Shown here: positions 375 through 29,186 of the stretch, piece after piece
Layout: each line of letters begins with the position of its first letter
Position numbering within the stretch: position 1 is the first letter of the stretch
Origin: a virus
DNA length: 29,562 bases
IMG/VR virus record: IMGVR_UViG_3300009705_001303
Location: 1 to 29,562 of that record
Reading direction: 5' to 3' (one strand)
Program-made: the position numbers and the translations under genes
The notes under the pieces: generated by a model
The model's database searches: none
Told to the model about the DNA's origin: nothing
Seen by the model: only the letters and a program-made list of their open reading frames with translations

Positions 375-1973
375 ATGGATTTATTTGGATTTGAGATTAA
401 GCGGAAAGAGGATAAGGCTTCAAACGAGAAATCGTTTGTTGCCCCTTCCGAAGACGGTGCTATTGAGAGTATACGCGCAGGCGGTTACTACGGTACCTAC
501 ATGGATTTGGAGGGCGTTGCCCAAACCGAGTCTGAATTAATTAAGAGGTATCGTGACATAGCCGGGATGGCAGACGTTGATACAGCTATTGAAGATATTA
601 TTAATGAGAGCATTGCTCAGTTGGAGAACGAGTCTCCAGTGGAACTTAACCTAGACAACGTCAAGTTGTCTTCGTCAGTTCGTAAGTCTATTATGAAGGA
701 ATTTGATGACATCAAAATGATGTTGGACTTTAAAGATAAAGCTCAAGATTATTTTAGACGTTGGTATATAGACGGTAAGTTATTCTTTCATAAAGTAATC
801 GATCTAGAGAATCCCAAGGCAGGGATTAAAGATGTAAGATACATTGACCCTAGAAAGATTAGAAAGGTACGAGAAGTTAAGAAGGAAAAGAATCCTTCAG
901 GCATATTGTTTATTAAAGAGATTGAGGAGTTCTTTATCTATAATGATAAAGGGGTTACCTCAAAACCAGGCGCATATGTTGCACCGGAAAATCAGCAAGG
1001 GCTGAAGATTACGAAGGACGCTATAGCATACGCACCAAGTGGTTTAGTAGATCACGATAAGAATATAGCGTTATCATATTTGCATAAGGCAATTAGGCCA
1101 GCAAACCAGTTAAGAATGATGGAGAACGCAGTTGTAATTTATAGGATTACAAGAGCTCCTGAAAGAAGAATATTTTATGTAGATGTTGGTAACCTTCCTA
1201 AGATGAAGGCTGAACAGTACATGAAAGACATCATGGATCGGTATAGAAACAAGTTAGTATACGATGCTAACACAGGCGAGATCCGAGATGATAAGAAGTT
1301 TATGTCCATGCTTGAAGACTTTTGGTTACCCAGAAGAGAAGGTGGAACAGGAACAAGTATTGATACATTGCCAGCAGGACAAAACCTAGGGCAGATTGAA
1401 GACGTAGTATATTTTCAACGTAAATTGTATCAGTCATTAAACATTCCTGTATCACGTTTAGAACAACAAGCAGGACTTAATTTTGGTAGAGCTGCTGAGA
1501 TAAACCGAGACGAGATGAAGTTTACAAAATTCATCATCAAGTTAAGGAGAAAGTTCTCAGTATTGTTAAGCGATCTTTTGCATACACAGCTCTTACTAAA
1601 AGGTGTTATTACAGAAGAAGATTGGACAGACATCAAAGATGATATAGAATTTGAGTTTGCCACAGATGCTTATTACACAGAGTCTAAAGAACAAGAGATT
1701 TTGAGAAGCAGAGTAGAAGTATTAAACGGACTAGCTGCTTATATAGGAACATTTTTTAGTAAGCGTTACATTCAAAAGAATGTGCTTAACTTAACAGATG
1801 AAGAGATTGATACAATAGAAACTGAGATTATGGCAGAGCCACAGTACAGTAGGCAGTATCAATGGAGTCCCTTACAACAAGTGCCGACGGATCAACCGGC
1901 ACCTGAAGGTGATATAAGTAATGATGTACCAGGCGGAGATACTCCTCCACCAGGCCCAGATAATGGAGAATAA
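375..1973 (+). CDS. gp20: Portal vertex protein gp20
   Basis: A protein of 532 residues, close to the usual T4 gp20 size (524). It forms the dodecameric ring at the capsid vertex through which DNA is packaged and where the neck attaches. Recognised from the central region with INRDEMKFTKFIIKLRRKFS, the stretch around the ARRE/LPRREGGTG segment, and its place between gp19 and the core genes. The C-terminus is a proline- and glycine-rich tail (QPAPEGDISNDVPGGDTPPP), probably disordered. The start ATG follows an AGGA sequence at about 10 bases. The start of the next gene lies one base after the stop, so the two are probably translated together. Confidence 0.93.
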   Translation: MDLFGFEIKRKEDKASNEKSFVAPSEDGAIESIRAGGYYGTYMDLEGVAQTESELIKRYRDIAGMADVDTAIEDIINESIAQLENESPVELNLDNVKLSSSVRKSIMKEFDDIKMMLDFKDKAQDYFRRWYIDGKLFFHKVIDLENPKAGIKDVRYIDPRKIRKVREVKKEKNPSGILFIKEIEEFFIYNDKGVTSKPGAYVAPENQQGLKITKDAIAYAPSGLVDHDKNIALSYLHKAIRPANQLRMMENAVVIYRITRAPERRIFYVDVGNLPKMKAEQYMKDIMDRYRNKLVYDANTGEIRDDKKFMSMLEDFWLPRREGGTGTSIDTLPAGQNLGQIEDVVYFQRKLYQSLNIPVSRLEQQAGLNFGRAAEINRDEMKFTKFIIKLRRKFSVLLSDLLHTQLLLKGVITEEDWTDIKDDIEFEFATDAYYTESKEQEILRSRVEVLNGLAAYIGTFFSKRYIQKNVLNLTDEEIDTIETEIMAEPQYSRQYQWSPLQQVPTDQPAPEGDISNDVPGGDTPPPGPDNGE

Positions 1974-5055: not shown

Positions 5056-6321
5056 ATGTATCTTTCAGAAGAACTACAAAAGAAGTGGCAACCAGTACTC
5101 GAGCATCCGGAATTACAAGAAATTTCAGATCCTTATAAGAGAGCTGTAACCACAGTAGTCCTAGAAAACCAAGAGAAAGCACTCCGCGAGGAAAAAGCAG
5201 CTCTTTTCGAGGCTACACACGCTAACCAAACTGGTTCAGGCGTCGACAACTACGATCCGATATTAATATCGCTCGTAAGACGTGCACTACCTAATTTGAT
5301 GGCATATGACGTATGCGGCGTACAACCAATGTCTGGTCCTACAGGACTTATTTTTGCAATGAAGTCTCATTACAGCACACAAGCTGGAACTGAAGCTTTA
5401 TTCAACGAAGCAGACACTGACTTCTCAGGCGCAGGTACACACGCTGGATCTAATCCAGTTGACGGTACTTACACCACGGGAAATGGCGTATCAACGGCAA
5501 CAGCAGAAGGATTTGGCGATTCGACTACACTACAAGAAATGGCATTCTCAATCGAGAAGACTACAGTTACGGCTAAGTCCAGAGCGTTAAAAGCTCAGTA
5601 CACCGTAGAGCTAGCTCAAGATTTGAAAGCTGTTCATGGTCTAGACGCAGAGTCAGAACTTTCAAACATCCTCTCTCAAGAAATCCTAGCGGAAATCAAC
5701 AGAGAAGTAATCAGAACAATCTATAAAGTAGCTAAAACTGGTTCTGCCAGCACAGCAACTGCCGGAACATTCGACTTAGATGTCGACAGTAACGGAAGAT
5801 GGTCTGTAGAAAGATTTAAAGGTCTTTTATTCAATATCGAACGTGACGCTAACGTGATCGCTCAAGACACAAGACGTGGCAAAGGTAACTTCATCATCTG
5901 TTCATCAGATGTTGCTAGTGCTTTGGCTATGGCCGGTGTTTTAGATTACGCTCCAGCTTTGAACACTAACCTAAATGTTGACGACACAGGCAACACTTTC
6001 GCTGGTGTACTTAACGGTAGATATAAAGTATATATTGACCCTTACTCAGCTAACAGTGGTTCTGCATCGCAGTTCTATGTAGCTGGTTATAAAGGCACAA
6101 GCCCTTATGACGCAGGTCTTTTCTACTGCCCTTACGTTCCATTACAGATGGTAAGAGCAATCGATCCTGCTACATTCCAACCAAAAATCGGATTTAAAAC
6201 TCGATATGGTATGATAGCTAACCCATTCGTAATGCAGGCTGACGGAACAACTGATGGTGATACATTCACCGCAGACCGTAACCAGTATTACAGAAGTGTT
6301 AAAGTTACAAACTTAATGTAA
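5056..6321 (+). CDS. gp23: Major capsid protein gp23
   Basis: A 421-residue HK97-fold major capsid protein. Seen directly: the N-terminal LYxxLxxWxPxL-like helix, the LVRRALPNLMAYDVCGVQPMSG segment typical of T4-like gp23, FAMKSHYS, and a C-terminal TRYGMIANPF block. An ALFE site at residues 49-52 followed by Ala53 fits the gp21 cleavage rule, so the mature protein would be about 369 residues. T4 gp23 is 521 long; this one is short, as in many marine T4-like phages, and probably lacks much of the insertion domain. The ribosome site is AAGGAG. It has its own late promoter and a strong terminator after it. Confidence 0.97.
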   Translation: MYLSEELQKKWQPVLEHPELQEISDPYKRAVTTVVLENQEKALREEKAALFEATHANQTGSGVDNYDPILISLVRRALPNLMAYDVCGVQPMSGPTGLIFAMKSHYSTQAGTEALFNEADTDFSGAGTHAGSNPVDGTYTTGNGVSTATAEGFGDSTTLQEMAFSIEKTTVTAKSRALKAQYTVELAQDLKAVHGLDAESELSNILSQEILAEINREVIRTIYKVAKTGSASTATAGTFDLDVDSNGRWSVERFKGLLFNIERDANVIAQDTRRGKGNFIICSSDVASALAMAGVLDYAPALNTNLNVDDTGNTFAGVLNGRYKVYIDPYSANSGSASQFYVAGYKGTSPYDAGLFYCPYVPLQMVRAIDPATFQPKIGFKTRYGMIANPFVMQADGTTDGDTFTADRNQYYRSVKVTNLM

Positions 6322-21976: not shown

Positions 21977-21984
21977 TATAAATA
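21977..21984 (+). promoter_or_regulatory. T4-type late promoter
   Basis: TATAAATA starts right after the deformylase stop and 28 bases before the next start codon. It gives late expression to the 117-residue protein and probably to the ClpP gene. Confidence 0.83.
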
Positions 21985-22987: not shown

Positions 22988-23125
22988 ATGGCTGATAAAG
23001 TAATAGAGTTTCCACAAAGGAGCGAAGTAGATAAAGAGTTCCTCACAATAATGCACCAAGCAGAAAAGATAAAGGAACAGCAAAGGAGAATTGAAAAACT
23101 CCTAAAAGATAAGGCGGATAAATAA
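22988..23125 (+). CDS. 45-residue charged helical protein
   Basis: A short gene with an AAAGGAG site, ATG at 22988 and stop TAA at 23123-23125 that overlaps the next start (TAATG). The product starts MADKVIEFPQRSEVDKEF and continues as one charged helix (KIKEQQRRIEKLLKDKADK). It is supported by the ribosome site, the coupling and the codon pattern. Function unknown; it could be a small adaptor or coiled-coil partner. Confidence 0.72.
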   Translation: MADKVIEFPQRSEVDKEFLTIMHQAEKIKEQQRRIEKLLKDKADK

Positions 23126-23574
23126 TGAGACTACGATACGGAACTTTTATTGCAGGCGCATTACTAGGACTACTAGTAGGTGTATTTTCGCAACCAGCAC
23201 AAGCAGATGCAGAATTTAATAACCTCATCATAGGATCTATTATTGGGGGTGTTCTTGTTAATGAATTTAAACAGGATAAAAGAGTCCCAAACCATGCAAC
23301 AATTATTTTGCCTGACGGGACAGTAATTATACCTCCCATCAGCCCAATAAACAAACCATCGAGAAAGACATCCTGGCCTACATACAACACATGTTTTTAT
23401 GTGGATGGAACAGGACAGTATTGTCAATGGATGGACCTCCCTAGGAAAAAGAGAAATCGAGGACTTACAGACAGGGAAGCTTATCTTAAGCATTATCCCT
23501 GCGGTGAAGCAGGTGCTTCTTTTGGTTACGGAATCAAAGGATGTAAAAAATGGATAGAATCTCTATCTAAATAA
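23125..23574 (+). CDS. Secreted glycine-zipper protein
   Basis: A 149-residue protein with a cleavable signal peptide: MRLRYG, a hydrophobic stretch GALLGLLVGVFS, and an AQA-DA cleavage site near residue 27. A short glycine zipper follows (LIIGSIIGGVLVNEF), which may insert in or pack on a membrane. The rest holds PDGTVIIPP and four Cys (CFYVDGTGQYC, PCGEAG, GCKKW) that could form disulfides in the periplasm. I do not recognise a family. It starts one base inside the 45-residue gene stop and stands just before the receptor-like gene, so the two exported proteins may act together. Confidence 0.83.
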   Translation: MRLRYGTFIAGALLGLLVGVFSQPAQADAEFNNLIIGSIIGGVLVNEFKQDKRVPNHATIILPDGTVIIPPISPINKPSRKTSWPTYNTCFYVDGTGQYCQWMDLPRKKRNRGLTDREAYLKHYPCGEAGASFGYGIKGCKKWIESLSK

Positions 23575-23597
23575 TAATAAAATAAATTAGGAGAAAA

Positions 23598-25151
23598 ATG
23601 AACGTTAATAACACTAAACTCCTACTTGCATTATTGCTTGTAGGATTTTTTACGACAACAGTATACGCCTCAGACATAGAAGAAGTAATAGTTGTAGGCG
23701 CAACGATATCTGTTACAGACTCAGATCCGGAAACGGATTCATCTGCAATAGAAGCACTACACCCTACGATGTTATACACCCCCGGTGGTGTTGGTGGCTT
23801 CATGGCACCAAAACTAAATGGCACAGACGCAAAACATACAGCAGTATATAGAAACGGGATCCCTGTAAACGATCCAGGTTCCGGTTGGTATAATATAGGA
23901 TTAGATATTCCTTTATTCCAATCGTATAAAATATACCAAGGACCAACAGCATTATATGGTAGCTCATCTATGGGAGGTGTAGTTCTTATTGAGGACAACT
24001 TCGATAGATCTGTTTTTTATAAAGGCGGTGATGGTTTAGTTAACCTAGTAGTAGGACATGAGAACTTTCAACTATCAGCATACAAAGGATCTAATGGTTC
24101 AGTAAGAACAGACAATGAAGAAGAAGACTTCTTTGAAACAATATCGTTTAAAACAAAACGAGAGTACAAAGACTGGACACTAGTTTCTAGTTACCAAGAA
24201 TACAAATATGATTATGATAATTGTTGGGTAGGGTGGACTCCCTCAAACGATTGTAGTCAAGAAGGATACAAAGTAGATACCTCATTAAGAAATGATATCT
24301 TTACATTCGGATATACCTTAGATGATTCCAAACATAATACGGGCTGGGAATCTAAATCAGATAGAATATATAGTGATGTAAACAAAGAGATAATGCCAGG
24401 ACTACTTGTAGGTATAACAGCACAAAGAGAGTCATACGATACAGCAACGCTAGGCTACTGGCGAGACACAGTAGCTGGTTACTTGAATTACGATTATAAT
24501 AATGTAGGGTTAGGTATTAGAACTGAGGAAGGAGATCACACAATTAGAGTTGGTACTAAGCTAGGTAAGTTTAATATATCATTAGGTAATAGTGTTAGGC
24601 GTCCTAGTCTTTACGAACGATACGGTGATGACTATGTTGTAGCAAGCCCCGATTTATCAAGTGAGGAAGCAATTGGACTAACAGTTGGTTGGGATCTTGT
24701 ATCAGTATTCTATTATGACTTCTCTGAAGGTATAGATTATGACAGCGCTAATCAGCAGTATGTTAATACAGGCAACTACATTTCTAGAGGTATGAACATT
24801 AGAAAAACATACATGACAGACGTTGGTGAGTTCTTTGCTTATGTTGGATTGATTGATACAGATGTATCCTCTCAGGCTAAGTATAGAACAATGTTTGCTT
24901 GGACAGTTACAAAGGCACCATATGGTGATGTGTCATTTGAGTACGCAGGCGAATTTGATAAGGGACTGGACTATATTGGCAGGCCAATTGATGATGTATC
25001 AGTATTCTCAATCAACTACGGTAATTGGATTAACCCAACAACACGCCTTGGCATACAGATTCAGGACCTTTTCGACAATGAATTCGAGATAATCCCTGGA
25101 TATGGAGCAGGTGGAAGGCAAATATCTATAACTTTTGACGTAAGTTACTGA
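23598..25151 (+). CDS. TonB-dependent-receptor-like outer membrane protein
   Basis: A 517-residue protein with an N-terminal signal peptide (NTKLLLALLLVGFFTTTVYA, cleavage near 24), then DIEEVIVVGA, the classic start of mature TonB-dependent receptors. The plug domain shows YRNGIPVNDPGSG and IYQGPTALYGSSSMGGVVLIE, the two best-known plug motifs. The rest is alternating strands of a beta barrel ending in RQISITFDVSY, with the terminal aromatic residue expected for outer membrane insertion. It is shorter than most such receptors (600-800), so the barrel is compact. It would sit in the host outer membrane. The substrate cannot be read from the sequence. It has an AGGAGA site and follows another secreted protein gene. 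Confidence 0.88.
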   Translation: MNVNNTKLLLALLLVGFFTTTVYASDIEEVIVVGATISVTDSDPETDSSAIEALHPTMLYTPGGVGGFMAPKLNGTDAKHTAVYRNGIPVNDPGSGWYNIGLDIPLFQSYKIYQGPTALYGSSSMGGVVLIEDNFDRSVFYKGGDGLVNLVVGHENFQLSAYKGSNGSVRTDNEEEDFFETISFKTKREYKDWTLVSSYQEYKYDYDNCWVGWTPSNDCSQEGYKVDTSLRNDIFTFGYTLDDSKHNTGWESKSDRIYSDVNKEIMPGLLVGITAQRESYDTATLGYWRDTVAGYLNYDYNNVGLGIRTEEGDHTIRVGTKLGKFNISLGNSVRRPSLYERYGDDYVVASPDLSSEEAIGLTVGWDLVSVFYYDFSEGIDYDSANQQYVNTGNYISRGMNIRKTYMTDVGEFFAYVGLIDTDVSSQAKYRTMFAWTVTKAPYGDVSFEYAGEFDKGLDYIGRPIDDVSVFSINYGNWINPTTRLGIQIQDLFDNEFEIIPGYGAGGRQISITFDVSY

Positions 25152-25221: not shown

Positions 25222-25254
25222 ATGAAGAAAACAAACAAAGTGAGGACTTTATGA
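25222..25254 (+). CDS. Mini leader ORF overlapping the CobT-like start
   Basis: ATG at 25222, ten codons (MKKTNKVRTL), and TGA at 25252-25254 that overlaps the start codon of the main gene (ATGA). The expected transcript start is only about five bases before this ATG. The GAGG ribosome site of the main gene lies within it. A similar mini-ORF stands ahead of the CobS-like gene. It may be a translational coupling or leader peptide, not a functional protein. Confidence 0.45.
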   Translation: MKKTNKVRTL

Positions 25255-27806
25255 ATCAAATCGAAACAAAGACAATACTAGCCAAGCTATTAGCTACTGA
25301 AGACATCAGTATTGTACATGATCCTAAGATGAGTACAGCGGCATTTGATGTCAAGGCTCGTACATTATATCTTCCAGTTTGGAAAGAGATGTCAAACGAT
25401 CTATATGATTTGTTTATTGGACATGAAGTTGGCCATGCTCGTAACACTCCTGAGGAAGGATGGCATGATGCGGTTTGTGATACTCCTAATCTTAAAGCCT
25501 TCTACAACATTATAGAAGACGCAAGGATTGAAAGAAAAATTAAAGCCCAATACCCTGGACTAACAAAGTCATTTCATAAAGGGTACCAAGAATTATTCGA
25601 CAAAGACTTTTTTGGTGTTAAAGGAAGAGACTTATCTAAACTCCCATTCGTAGACAGAGTTAACCTTCACTTTAAAATAGGCCACTTACTAGGTCTTAAA
25701 TTTACAGCTGACGAACAGAATTTTCTAGACAGAGTTGCAAAGACAGAAACTTGGGAAGATGTTAAAGTATTATCTCTCGAACTGGCTGACATGTCTAAAG
25801 CAGAATCAGAAGAAAGACAAGACGAGTTGGAGCCACTTCAACAAGAACTTCAAGATCTCCTAGATGAATTAAGCGAGGAACAACAAGGTGAACCTCAGCG
25901 TAGTGACTTTGGCGATCAATCTTCAGACGAAGAAGGTGAAGAAGAAGAGTCCGACGAAGCAGGTGAAGGCAACAGCTCATCTGAAGATACAGATGAAGAC
26001 GGAAACCCAAAACCAGGCACACCAGGCGGTGAGCAAGGCGAAGACGAGACAGACGATGAGTATTGGGATCGTAAAAATGAGGAGTATAAAGAAGAAAGAG
26101 CTAAACGTCAAGCAGAATACGAAAAGCAAAGAGCAAAGCAAGAAGCTGAGCAAAAAGCTAACAACGAATACCTCGAAGCGAGAGAAGAGGCTGAGAAGAA
26201 GCAGGCAAAGATAGAAGAAGAAATAAAAGAAACTAAAAAGATGCATGACTTCCTAAGCCAAGGTGGACAGAAGTCAATTACAGATGATGAGTTTAGACTT
26301 AATGAAGAAACATTGGTTCAACTTGATGCTCAGCCAATAGTTTACTTGACCCTCCCAAAAAGATTTAAAGGTGATGAACTAGTCATCTCAATGGACAACC
26401 TATATGACTGGGACAAGTCCATAGACCTACAGAAGGTTACTGGTACAGACTACTGGGACACACAAGACGTTCCAAAATCAGAGTACAAGGCTATTGCTAA
26501 TGGCATGTACCAAGAGTTCATAAGAAACTCCAATCCAATTATAGCTTCAATGGCTCAGCAATTTGAGATGAAGAAGGCAGCAGCATCTTCTAAGAAGAAT
26601 CAAACTTCTAAAACAGGTAAGTTGAATGAGGACAAGCTCTGGGCATACAAGTTGACAGAGGATTTATTCCACTCAACTACAATGGTTCCTAATGGTAAGA
26701 ACCACGGTATAATAATGTATGTAGACCTTTCAGGTAGTATGCAACGATCAATGGCAGGAACAATAGAACAGATGCTTAACATGGCATTGTTCTGCAGAAA
26801 AATAAACATACCATTTGATGTGTATGGATTTTCAGATAGACATTCAGATGGATTTTACAATGACTCAGGTGAGTGGGTAGAAGATACTTCAGGTCCATTC
26901 TCTCAGAACAAAGAAGTTGAGAAAAAGATTCTAGCAGACACACCTAATGGTGAGATGATTTTAACAAACGATGGTTTTAGGCTAGTACATTTACTTAGCT
27001 CTACTTGTAAGAAGTCAGAGTTTATAAATGCAGTTAGCTACCTACTACTAATGAAAGTAGGCTACAATAACTATTCCAGACAATGGGGTGGCAAAGATCA
27101 GAGTACTTATTTTGGACAGATCAGAAATAGATATTTAAGTCTAGGCGGTACTCCACTTACTAATTGTGTGTTGTCATCATTCTCAATGGCAGAAAGATTC
27201 CAAAAGAAATATAATGTTGAAGTTCTTACTACAATATTCCTAACAGACGGCGGCGCTACAGACCAAATAGTTTACAGAGATCACTCCAGAGATTCAGAAG
27301 AGACAGGTAAAAACGGTAGCAGTTATGTATACAACGATCAAATAGCAATTAAAGACGGACCGGTTGTAACTAAGCTCCCATCCAAAGAATCATTCAGCAG
27401 ATACGATGGTGTTTCAATCCATACGATGCTAGAACATTACAAAAGAATTACAGGTTCAACAGTAATAAACTTCCACATTGTAGACGGCAAGAAAGACGCA
27501 TTCCACAGAGAATGTTTTTCAGCAGCATGGATGGATGGTGAGAACTCTCCTAGATGGGTAACAAGAGACTGGGAGCAGACAACTTGGAAAGAGATTCTTA
27601 AAGACAAGTTTACCTTAGTAACACCTACTTTCGGTTACAATGCTCGGTTCCTTATTAAAGGTAACAAGGATTTAGACGTAGGGAATGAGGAGCTTATAGT
27701 GAAGTCAGCCAAGAAGGGAGACTTACTGAGGGGCTTTAGAAACTTCAATAAGACCAAGAAGAGTTCAAGGACTTTCCTCAATAAGATCATAGAGTTAGTA
27801 GCTTAG
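25251..27806 (+). CDS. CobT-like metalloprotease-VWA protein
   Basis: An 851-residue protein. The N-terminal part has a zinc protease motif HEVGH at 58-62 and NIIEDARIE at 86-94. A long, very acidic region with coiled-coil stretches follows (about 190-350). The C-terminal half has a VWA domain with the complete MIDAS metal site: DLSGS at 492-496, a GGTPLT loop near 630, and TDGG with Asp666. CobT, the VWA partner of cobalt chelatase, shows the same acid-rich linker and VWA plan, and marine T4-like phages carry related genes beside CobS. As CobN is missing, it more likely works with the CobS-like ATPase on another target; the HEXXH motif points to proteolysis. Confidence 0.9.
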   Translation: MNQIETKTILAKLLATEDISIVHDPKMSTAAFDVKARTLYLPVWKEMSNDLYDLFIGHEVGHARNTPEEGWHDAVCDTPNLKAFYNIIEDARIERKIKAQYPGLTKSFHKGYQELFDKDFFGVKGRDLSKLPFVDRVNLHFKIGHLLGLKFTADEQNFLDRVAKTETWEDVKVLSLELADMSKAESEERQDELEPLQQELQDLLDELSEEQQGEPQRSDFGDQSSDEEGEEEESDEAGEGNSSSEDTDEDGNPKPGTPGGEQGEDETDDEYWDRKNEEYKEERAKRQAEYEKQRAKQEAEQKANNEYLEAREEAEKKQAKIEEEIKETKKMHDFLSQGGQKSITDDEFRLNEETLVQLDAQPIVYLTLPKRFKGDELVISMDNLYDWDKSIDLQKVTGTDYWDTQDVPKSEYKAIANGMYQEFIRNSNPIIASMAQQFEMKKAAASSKKNQTSKTGKLNEDKLWAYKLTEDLFHSTTMVPNGKNHGIIMYVDLSGSMQRSMAGTIEQMLNMALFCRKINIPFDVYGFSDRHSDGFYNDSGEWVEDTSGPFSQNKEVEKKILADTPNGEMILTNDGFRLVHLLSSTCKKSEFINAVSYLLLMKVGYNNYSRQWGGKDQSTYFGQIRNRYLSLGGTPLTNCVLSSFSMAERFQKKYNVEVLTTIFLTDGGATDQIVYRDHSRDSEETGKNGSSYVYNDQIAIKDGPVVTKLPSKESFSRYDGVSIHTMLEHYKRITGSTVINFHIVDGKKDAFHRECFSAAWMDGENSPRWVTRDWEQTTWKEILKDKFTLVTPTFGYNARFLIKGNKDLDVGNEELIVKSAKKGDLLRGFRNFNKTKKSSRTFLNKIIELVA

Positions 27807-27972: not shown

Positions 27973-28011
27973 ATGAAGAAACAACATAAATTAGTGAGGA
28001 CTACAATATGA
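27973..28011 (+). CDS. Mini leader ORF overlapping the CobS-like start
   Basis: ATG at 27973, twelve codons (MKKQHKLVRTTI), and TGA at 28009-28011 that overlaps the main start codon (ATGA). It parallels the mini-ORF at 25222-25254 in start context, MKK...K.VRT residues, and stop overlap. The main gene ribosome site GTGAGGACT lies inside it. Confidence 0.45.
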   Translation: MKKQHKLVRTTI

Positions 28012-29186
28012 AAATGATAGACAGAGAAAACTTAATCCAGACACTGCAGTCACAAGACAACGGTACTGGTGTATTTACCCGTAAGGCAATCATCGAGGCA
28101 GCAGCGTCCATTGGACTTGGCTTCCCAGCGTGGTTGATAAACGGCAAACCTGAAGTCAAGGTTGAGCGTGGGATTTATAATCTTACTACAATGTTTGGTG
28201 GACAAGTTGCACAGGCTGTGCCCTTGGCAGTAGTCCAAACAAATCAATCAACGGTAGCTCCGGCTCCAGCGATTTTGACTCAGGCAATTTTGAATGTAAC
28301 TGTAGATAACTTGATCCCAAATAAAGATGAGACATTCGTCCCGTTTGGTTTCTACAAGGACTTAAAGACAGTTCTTTCTACAAGTATGTTCTACCCAATT
28401 TTCATTAGCGGATTATCAGGTAATGGTAAGACGACAATGGTTGAACAAGTATGTGCTAATCTTAAACGTGAAGCCATACGAGTTAATATAAGTATTGAAA
28501 CCGATGAGGACGATTTGATAGGTGGAAATACTCTAGTTGATGGTAACGTCGTGTATAGAGAAGGGCCCGTCCTCACCGCTATGAAGCGGGGCGCTGTTCT
28601 CATTCTTGATGAAGTAGATAGGGGTTCAAACAAGTTGATGTGCTTACAAGCCATCCTTGAGGGGAAGCCTTATTTCAACAAGAAGACAGGCGATACTATA
28701 ACTCCTGCTCCAGGGTTTAACTTAGTGGCTACGGCCAATACTAAGGGTCGAGGTTCAGATGACGGCAAATTTATTTCCGCCAACATCCTCGATGAGGCAT
28801 TCCTAGAAAGGTTTGCTATTACTGTGGAGCAAGAGTACCCTACAATGGCTACCGAGAAAAAGATTGTAATGAAGAAAATGGAAAGGGTGAACAACCTAGA
28901 CGAAGACTTTGCTACTCATCTTGTAACTTGGAGTGATGTTATTCGTAAGACATATTACGAAGGTGCCATAGACGAGTTGATTTCAACACGTAGACTCGAG
29001 CATATTGTTAACGCATACGCAGTTTTCAAAGACAAGACTAAAGCAGTCCAACTTTGTGTTAACAGGTTTGACGATGACACCAAAGAGGCGTTTATAGATT
29101 TATACGCCAAGGTAGATCCTTCAGTAGAATTAGCTGAAGGAGTTGATGAAACAACTGAACAGGAGATCCATACAGATGGCGAATAA
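28008..29186 (+). CDS. cobS: CobS-like MoxR-type AAA+ ATPase
   Basis: A 392-residue AAA+ protein. Walker A is GLSGNGKTT, Walker B LILDEVD, sensor 1 LVATANT, and a FLERFAI arginine-finger region follows, all as in the CobS/MoxR group. Residues 1-110 form an extra N-terminal domain, with a Pro/Ala/Val linker. MoxR-type ATPases act with VWA partners; the partner here is clearly the CobT-like gene upstream, which shares its promoter. Marine T4-like phages call this gene cobS, but cobalt chelation is unproved and CobN is absent. The GTGAGGACT site precedes the ATG; a second in-frame ATG lies at 28014. Confidence 0.93.
   Translation: MKMIDRENLIQTLQSQDNGTGVFTRKAIIEAAASIGLGFPAWLINGKPEVKVERGIYNLTTMFGGQVAQAVPLAVVQTNQSTVAPAPAILTQAILNVTVDNLIPNKDETFVPFGFYKDLKTVLSTSMFYPIFISGLSGNGKTTMVEQVCANLKREAIRVNISIETDEDDLIGGNTLVDGNVVYREGPVLTAMKRGAVLILDEVDRGSNKLMCLQAILEGKPYFNKKTGDTITPAPGFNLVATANTKGRGSDDGKFISANILDEAFLERFAITVEQEYPTMATEKKIVMKKMERVNNLDEDFATHLVTWSDVIRKTYYEGAIDELISTRRLEHIVNAYAVFKDKTKAVQLCVNRFDDDTKEAFIDLYAKVDPSVELAEGVDETTEQEIHTDGE

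Follow-up and report, generated by a model that had tools for sequence, protein, structure and literature searches.

The window, i.e. the whole stretch of 29,562 nucleotides analysed here, carries a gene for a TonB-dependent receptor (TBDR) that is closest to the cobalamin receptors by profile, fold and tree. It is a genuine phage gene in a contig that is not chimeric, and it belongs to a viral family under purifying selection. We give a probability of about 0.6 to the reading that the protein is a BtuB-type transporter supplied by the phage, powered by host TonB and used for the uptake of corrinoid during infection. The fold and the family are known; the novelty lies, as far as our tools show, in a BtuB-like clade of T4-like phages that is specific to viruses. 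Since the receptor is found in hundreds of uncultured aquatic viruses, it suggests the scavenging of vitamin B12 (B12), or of a molecule like it, for the infected cell. TBDRs are known mainly as entry doors for phages, and here one has become the conserved own gene of a widespread T4-like lineage.

The receptor gene and its surroundings

A first-pass annotation made from the sequence letters had described a TBDR-like protein of a T4-like phage with a signal peptide, the segment DIEEVIVVGA, two plug motifs and a C-terminal tyrosine, and all of these were confirmed (Table 1). The N-terminus resembles a signal peptide ending in ...TTVYA before SDIEEVIVVGA, a hydrophobic N-terminal stretch is also present in the other aligned family members displayed, and the C-terminus reads ...DVSY. 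The protein scores 26.7 bits against the Pfam Plug model PF07715 (gathering score 23.9, E=8.2e-6), the model matches each of the 44 viral family members, and a confident barrel model was obtained by structure prediction. Of the two HMMs that the annotation had named as a check, PF07715 therefore matched above its gathering score and the barrel model PF00593 had no match in the window receptor (3/44 family members match, the best at 1.2e-11), so that the barrel is shown by fold and not by that HMM. The PHROG family phrog_5687 (function unknown) matches the plug weakly in 32 of the 44 members.

Table 1. Features of the window that bear on the receptor gene
Feature	Position	Strand	Basis
gp20 portal, T4-like marker	375..1973	+	PF07230 E=1e-173
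gp23 major capsid, T4-like marker	5056..6321	+	PF07068 E=9e-143
TATAAATA late-promoter-like site, nearest one upstream of receptor gene	21977..21984	+	sequence
ClpP-like protease, phage context	22345..22947	+	PF00574, phrog_1827
Small secreted-type protein, 149 aa, 23 bases 5' of receptor gene	23125..23574	+	homologues in 40 loci
Shine-Dalgarno AGGAG, 4 bases 5' of receptor ATG	23589..23593	+	sequence
TonB-dependent-receptor gene, BtuB-like, 517 aa	23598..25151	+	ORF with ATG start; PF07715; AF2; PDB fold BtuB
Receptor signal peptide, aa 1-24, cleavage between ...VYA and SD	23598..23669	+	by inspection
Receptor TonB-box-like segment DIEEVIVVGA, aa 26-35	23673..23702	+	sequence and conservation
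Receptor plug domain, aa 36-132, with NGIPVNDPGSGWY and GPTALYGSSSMGGVVLIE	23703..23993	+	PF07715 at aa 61-128; conservation
Receptor 22-stranded beta-barrel, aa 138-516	24009..25145	+	DSSP of AF2 model; BtuB superposition
Receptor loop L2 N-E-E-E-D, aa 173-177	24114..24128	+	alignment with BtuB-type proteins
Receptor loop L3 YDNC...DC, aa 206-219	24213..24254	+	alignment; invariant residues
VWA protein with HEVGH metallopeptidase motif (often named CobT-like/peptidase)	25251..27806	+	phrog_459
CobS-like AAA+ ATPase	28008..29186	+	phrog_249; TIGR01650 E=2.5e-21, far below cutoff

The window contig has T4-like character along its whole length, and five T4-like genes (gp20, gp22, gp23, UvsW and gp46) were recognized in it by Pfam and PHROG models. 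The gp23 product is 71% identical to that of Methylophilales phage Melnitz; its nearest kin are those of Melnitz and HTVC008M, both Kyanoviridae, and the hosts of the phages with gp23 kin are OM43 and SAR11. The receptor gene is flanked by the ClpP-like protease gene on one side and by the genes for the VWA/metallopeptidase protein and the CobS-like ATPase on the other, and the same order of ClpP, small secreted protein, receptor, VWA protein and CobS is found in independent 17 kb IMG/VR contigs with receptors 100% and 99% identical to that of the window. A wrong joining of phage and host DNA, which the first-pass annotation had raised against its own proposal, is contradicted by this repeated gene order and by relatives whose contigs, the longest of 170 kb, also encode gp23 or further T4-like genes.

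The small secreted-type gene is probably co-transcribed with the receptor gene, and its homologues, which lie directly upstream of the receptor gene, belong to one lineage (e.g. L012:7495-7962). No Pfam or PHROG family was found for this protein; the family members are 100-199 aa in length, with the start ADTSDVIxGxxxGGxLGSEIQK and a C-terminal PCG..WGY. On the other side of the receptor gene, the VWA protein combines the zinc-protease-like HEVGH motif with a VWA (DLSGSM) domain and has no NCBIfam CobT match; "CobT" is a doubtful name for such phage VWA genes. In the window as a whole there are 10 TATAAATA sites compared to 3.7 expected (among them 3664, 3670, 4999, 6381, 7080, 21977 and 29502), several of them just 5' of gp22, gp23 and other genes in the manner of T4-type late promoters. 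A late promoter directly upstream of the receptor gene was ruled out, as no TATAAATA site beyond chance was detected within 150 bp of the gene in 56 loci.

Relationship to vitamin B12 receptors

When a profile of the 44 viral proteins was searched against the PDB, E. coli BtuB was matched over its whole length at E=2e-23, and the next chain other than BtuB followed at 9e-4. The B12 receptor model TIGR01779 matches 36 of the 44 viral members; the window receptor itself scores 35.6 bits against a curated equivalog cutoff of 599.7, and because this is far below the cutoff the protein is to be called BtuB-like and not BtuB. Cellular relatives were sought with the viral profile in 398 Pseudomonadota genomes, and the best were all cellular receptors of the BtuB type, about 600-740 aa in length. 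B12-receptor models came first for all of the ten best cellular relatives, four of which passed the BtuB cutoff. A cobalamin riboswitch adjoins the gene in 28 of the 30 nearest cellular homologues and is found beside none of 20 siderophore-receptor loci; the 30 loci were picked by similarity to the viral profile, and riboswitches of this kind are to be expected at BtuB-type genes. On the viral side, scans of the window and of 18 viral loci gave no cobalamin riboswitch, which counts against the corrinoid reading. In a quick tree of viral and cellular receptors, rooted on siderophore receptors, the sampled viral receptors form one clade (support 100) that groups with B12-type receptors (98) and stands next to true BtuB (82), although the viral stem is long and the exact sister group therefore unsure. 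The phylogeny that had been proposed as a check thus places the viral clade with the B12 receptors.

Among the uses suggested earlier for the protein, the supply of a scarce nutrient is the best supported, and profile, fold, tree and the riboswitch neighbours of the cellular kin make a corrinoid the most likely nutrient; we consider that the ligand is probably a corrinoid. The identity of the viral receptor to any cellular relative is 24% or less, and this together with the 35.6 bits means that ligand specificity could have shifted. The protein may be a BtuB-derived, TonB-dependent importer for some other scarce ligand needed by the phage (e.g. haem, chelated iron or a different tetrapyrrole or cofactor), such as one bringing in iron for a class I ribonucleotide reductase (RNR), the small subunit of which is encoded by the phages. 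Low identity to BtuB would agree with such an importer, as would the haem/transferrin receptor models that match 20 of the 44 viral members, more weakly than the B12 models; against it, B12 receptors come first by all three approaches and three of the five calcium-cage positions of BtuB are retained (see below), and we regard a different ligand as unlikely.

Predicted structure and conserved positions

An AlphaFold2 model of the window receptor, built with an alignment of 44 viral relatives as input (pLDDT 89, pTM 0.88), contains a plug and, after it, the 22 strands of a barrel, which DSSP assigns within residues 138-516. Its periplasmic turns are short and its outer loops do not exceed 21 residues, and the receptor is short for this reason. 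In a Foldseek search with the model the first 11 matches were BtuB (E=1.9e-20), and VIA-align superposed it on BtuB with Z of 36.9 and rmsd of 2.4 over 486 residues, compared to Z of 32-33 for Bacteroides BtuB and at most 31.4 for haem, iron and other receptors. The prediction of structure thus bore out a 22-stranded barrel with plug that superposes full length on BtuB. Loop L8, a cobalamin contact in BtuB, is reduced to about 4 residues in the viral receptor, a further point against the corrinoid reading.

Across the 44 viral receptors, conservation amounts to 3.34 bits in the TonB box, 2.9-3.6 in the plug apices and 2.75 in the outer loops, falling to 2.39 in the barrel strands and 1.69 in the periplasmic turns. 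Cellular relatives display the same order, more weakly, so the pattern is not peculiar to viruses. Within the TonB box, E28 is kept in 41/44, E29 in 43/44 and V32 in 43/44 proteins. Invariant in all 44 are N86, N91 and W97 of the plug, N173, E175 and D177 of loop L2, and Y206, D207, C209 and C219 of loop L3; the two cysteines flank L3 and likely form a disulfide. We take D179, D193, D195, D230 and D241 to be the cage aspartates of BtuB, of which D193, D195 and D230 align with viral E175, D177 and D207, the counterparts of D179 and D241 being not clear. In the cellular relatives the position of E175 is acidic in 27/30 and that of D177 in 28/30, and the position of D207 is D in 28/30. The five-aspartate cage of BtuB holds two Ca2+ near the cobalamin site (PMC7360065). 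Taken together, the conservation of loops, plug and TonB box, the calcium-cage positions and the dN/dS values given below would fit a working, ligand-specific importer driven by TonB.

The first-pass annotation had suspected a short barrel that was trimmed to a decoy. This idea was not upheld: all 22 strands are present in the model, and conservation is highest in the TonB box, the plug apices and the extracellular loops, which is contrary to the needs of a decoy. The receptor might still act in superinfection exclusion or competition, by engaging TonB or by trapping competing phages, colicin-like toxins or receptor-binding proteins for which receptors like BtuB are the target. TBDRs such as BtuB and FhuA are common phage receptors, the TonB box is retained, and the small secreted partner is encoded alongside in one lineage, all of which is compatible with such a device. 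We nevertheless judge it improbable, because conservation covers the entire transport path, from the TonB box to the plug apices, the full barrel is retained, and the outer loops are kept across viral receptors at about 30-50% identity, which would suit a ligand site and not the mimicry of diverse host receptors.

Distribution and selection of the viral family

Receptor relatives were detected by profile scan in at least 216 IMG/VR contigs, 80 of which were fetched. The fetched family includes gp23-bearing records of 170, 165 and 149 kb, and an additional receptor-bearing record of 161 kb was found via its gp23. The site of the gene differs by lineage: it may lie between ClpP and the VWA protein, upstream of gp47/gp46, immediately 5' of UvsW, or elsewhere. 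In other lineages a gene resembling pyrimidine-dimer glycosylase or nucleoside phosphorylase lies directly 5' of the receptor gene (L079:1817-2365, L040:7423-7974). Two receptor-bearing records, L079 and L080 (IMG 2786546798 and 2788500184), have IMG numbers that resemble those of single-genome projects and not of metagenomes. Only three of 20 T4-like records chosen by gp23 or gp46, irrespective of the receptor, carry the gene, which makes it an accessory gene of certain lineages; in pelagiphage HTVC008M the matching interval has no receptor gene.

Among 50,697 phage records there is no homologue covering 80% or more of the window receptor, and three diverse family members searched against phage records gave no relative, or only bacterial-looking btuB. 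These results are consistent with the earlier statement that no described T4-like phage carries such a receptor, and we know of none; the open-access literature contained no report of a T4-like TBDR, most subscription journals being outside the scope of that search. The btuB genes in Salmonella and "Acinetobacter phage MD-2021a" records were rejected as phage relatives since they look like bacterial DNA. Three records of the phage collection (AGRM01000004, AFYI01000005 and CAKLQH020000002) hold bacterial btuB, two of them together with 16S rRNA, and are probably bacterial contigs.

In a set of one genome for each of 84,980 species, the family had only three cellular matches, all weak, and no cellular member of the viral clade was found. 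Synonymous changes were present in 30 pairs of viral receptors, 29 of which have dN/dS ratios of 0.10-0.23; the 30th pair differs by only six changes. A recent, functionless pickup of a host gene or a chimeric contig, for which one might cite the failure to find the family in isolated T4-like phages, is refuted by the number of contigs with their several gene neighbourhoods, by the single viral clade on its long stem, by these dN/dS values and the lack of stop codons, and by the paucity of cellular matches.

Comparison with known receptors and phage genes

Likeness to E. coli BtuB (TIGR01779; PDB 1nqh, 2gsk) extends to the plug and 22-strand barrel, the TonB box, alignment from end to end and three of the five calcium-cage positions. 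The viral receptor differs in being 18% identical, about 95 residues shorter (517 vs the 614-aa precursor) and short in its loops, in the extra invariant C209/C219 of L3 and W97 of the plug, and in being phage-borne, free of a riboswitch and far below the equivalog cutoff. The nearest cellular sequences are BtuB-type receptors of Pseudomonadota controlled by cobalamin riboswitches. The nearest of them, L133/L165 (7758-9599), is under such a riboswitch and has the YDNC...NDC outer loop in common with the viral family, and L133 also shares the NTEDDGYEN motif. These cellular receptors differ from the viral ones in their low identity and larger size (both given above), and they are chromosomal and riboswitch-associated.

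The marine megaphage Mar_Mega_1 is reported to carry a SusC-like TBDR, for which a role in aiding metabolism was suggested (PMC9723777). This is the single earlier case of a phage-borne TBDR that our searches brought up; the Mar_Mega_1 protein is named as a SusC, i.e. the carbohydrate type, and comes from another phage group. The only phage TBDR model in BFVD, A0A8D9FQQ5 (named SusC, from an uncultured marine phage, 805 aa), which we do not equate with the Mar_Mega_1 protein, fits the receptor fold worse than BtuB does (TMq 0.58 vs 0.76). The neighbours of the window receptor include CobS/CobT-like genes, the "cobalamin" genes of marine T4-like phages, and cobS is a core gene of cyanophages (PMC3037559). 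Their products are AAA+ and VWA/metallopeptidase proteins of unproven role, which occur without the receptor (e.g. in HTVC008M), and the receptor occurs without CobS, as in the 149-kb record. The adjacency of CobS/CobT was ruled out as proof of a B12 role, given this separate occurrence, the several other places of the receptor gene and the identity of "CobT" as an HEVGH VWA protein lacking an NCBIfam match.

Proposed corrinoid uptake and its possible use in the infected cell

TBDRs are exported by Sec and inserted by Bam, draw energy from TonB-ExbB-ExbD, and release their ligand into the periplasm. Under the corrinoid-uptake reading, the phage receptor would be secreted via Sec and inserted by Bam in the outer membrane of the host, where it would be active and powered by host TonB-ExbB-ExbD. 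No phage-encoded TonB was found, hence the reliance on host TonB, and a host with TonB would be required. Its cargo would be a corrinoid, either vitamin B12 or a related compound, to be released into the periplasm, and host inner-membrane uptake of the BtuCDF-like kind would then be needed. The imported B12 could supply B12-dependent enzymes in the infected cell, perhaps including radical-SAM proteins encoded by related phages; we put forward this use tentatively, as the most economical one. A class II (B12-dependent) RNR was ruled out as the B12 user, since the RNR of the receptor-bearing phages is class I, so that no class II enzyme of the phage would call for B12.

When B12-binding domains were searched for, a family of proteins emerged, about 480-590 aa in length, that combine a radical-SAM core (CxxxCxxC, Radical_SAM over cutoff) with a B12-binding-like N-terminal domain. 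The B12-binding model PF02310 is below its gathering score in both proteins scanned and above it in 1/8 record matches; NCBIfam matches are mainly to B12-binding/radical-SAM families (6/6), and the best PDB match is the cobalamin-dependent methylase TokK (E=3e-7). This partner is encoded by 8 of 10 receptor-bearing records of at least 80 kb and, apart from one distant match at 2.5e-14, by none of six receptor-free T4-like records with a length of 90 kb or more (one-sided Fisher 0.0035, which ignores kinship, related phages not being independent observations). The partner profile was built from receptor-bearing records; G421 is independent of it. In L021 and L023 the radical-SAM gene lies 3' of the receptor gene with a gap of 11 bases, in L010 it follows CobS, and in 4/4 enzyme loci that reach the ClpP side the receptor is present. 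With 508 IMG/VR contigs the enzyme family is more widespread than the receptor, and no copy lies inside the 29.5-kb window, so the enzyme link is an extrapolation for the window's own phage.

It is conceivable, if somewhat doubtful, that the receptor forms part of a corrinoid module of two components in a large and old clade of uncultured T4-like phages, made up of a BtuB-like importer driven by host TonB and one or more cobalamin-dependent radical-SAM enzymes of the phage. Such a module would bring both cofactor supply and enzyme, e.g. for methylating a macromolecule of phage or host where seawater is poor in B12. If corrinoid import is true, viruses compete directly for a trace nutrient, B12, which many marine bacteria are unable to synthesize, and the uptake of infected cells would be altered; the role of the phage "cobalamin" genes and the remodelling of the host outer membrane by phages become testable. 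The L010 radical-SAM copy has no match in the 50,697 phage records. Partner genes were located at L010:13724-15283, L030:14101-15831 (minus strand), L021:9518-10966 and L023:5377-6840, with up to three copies per phage.
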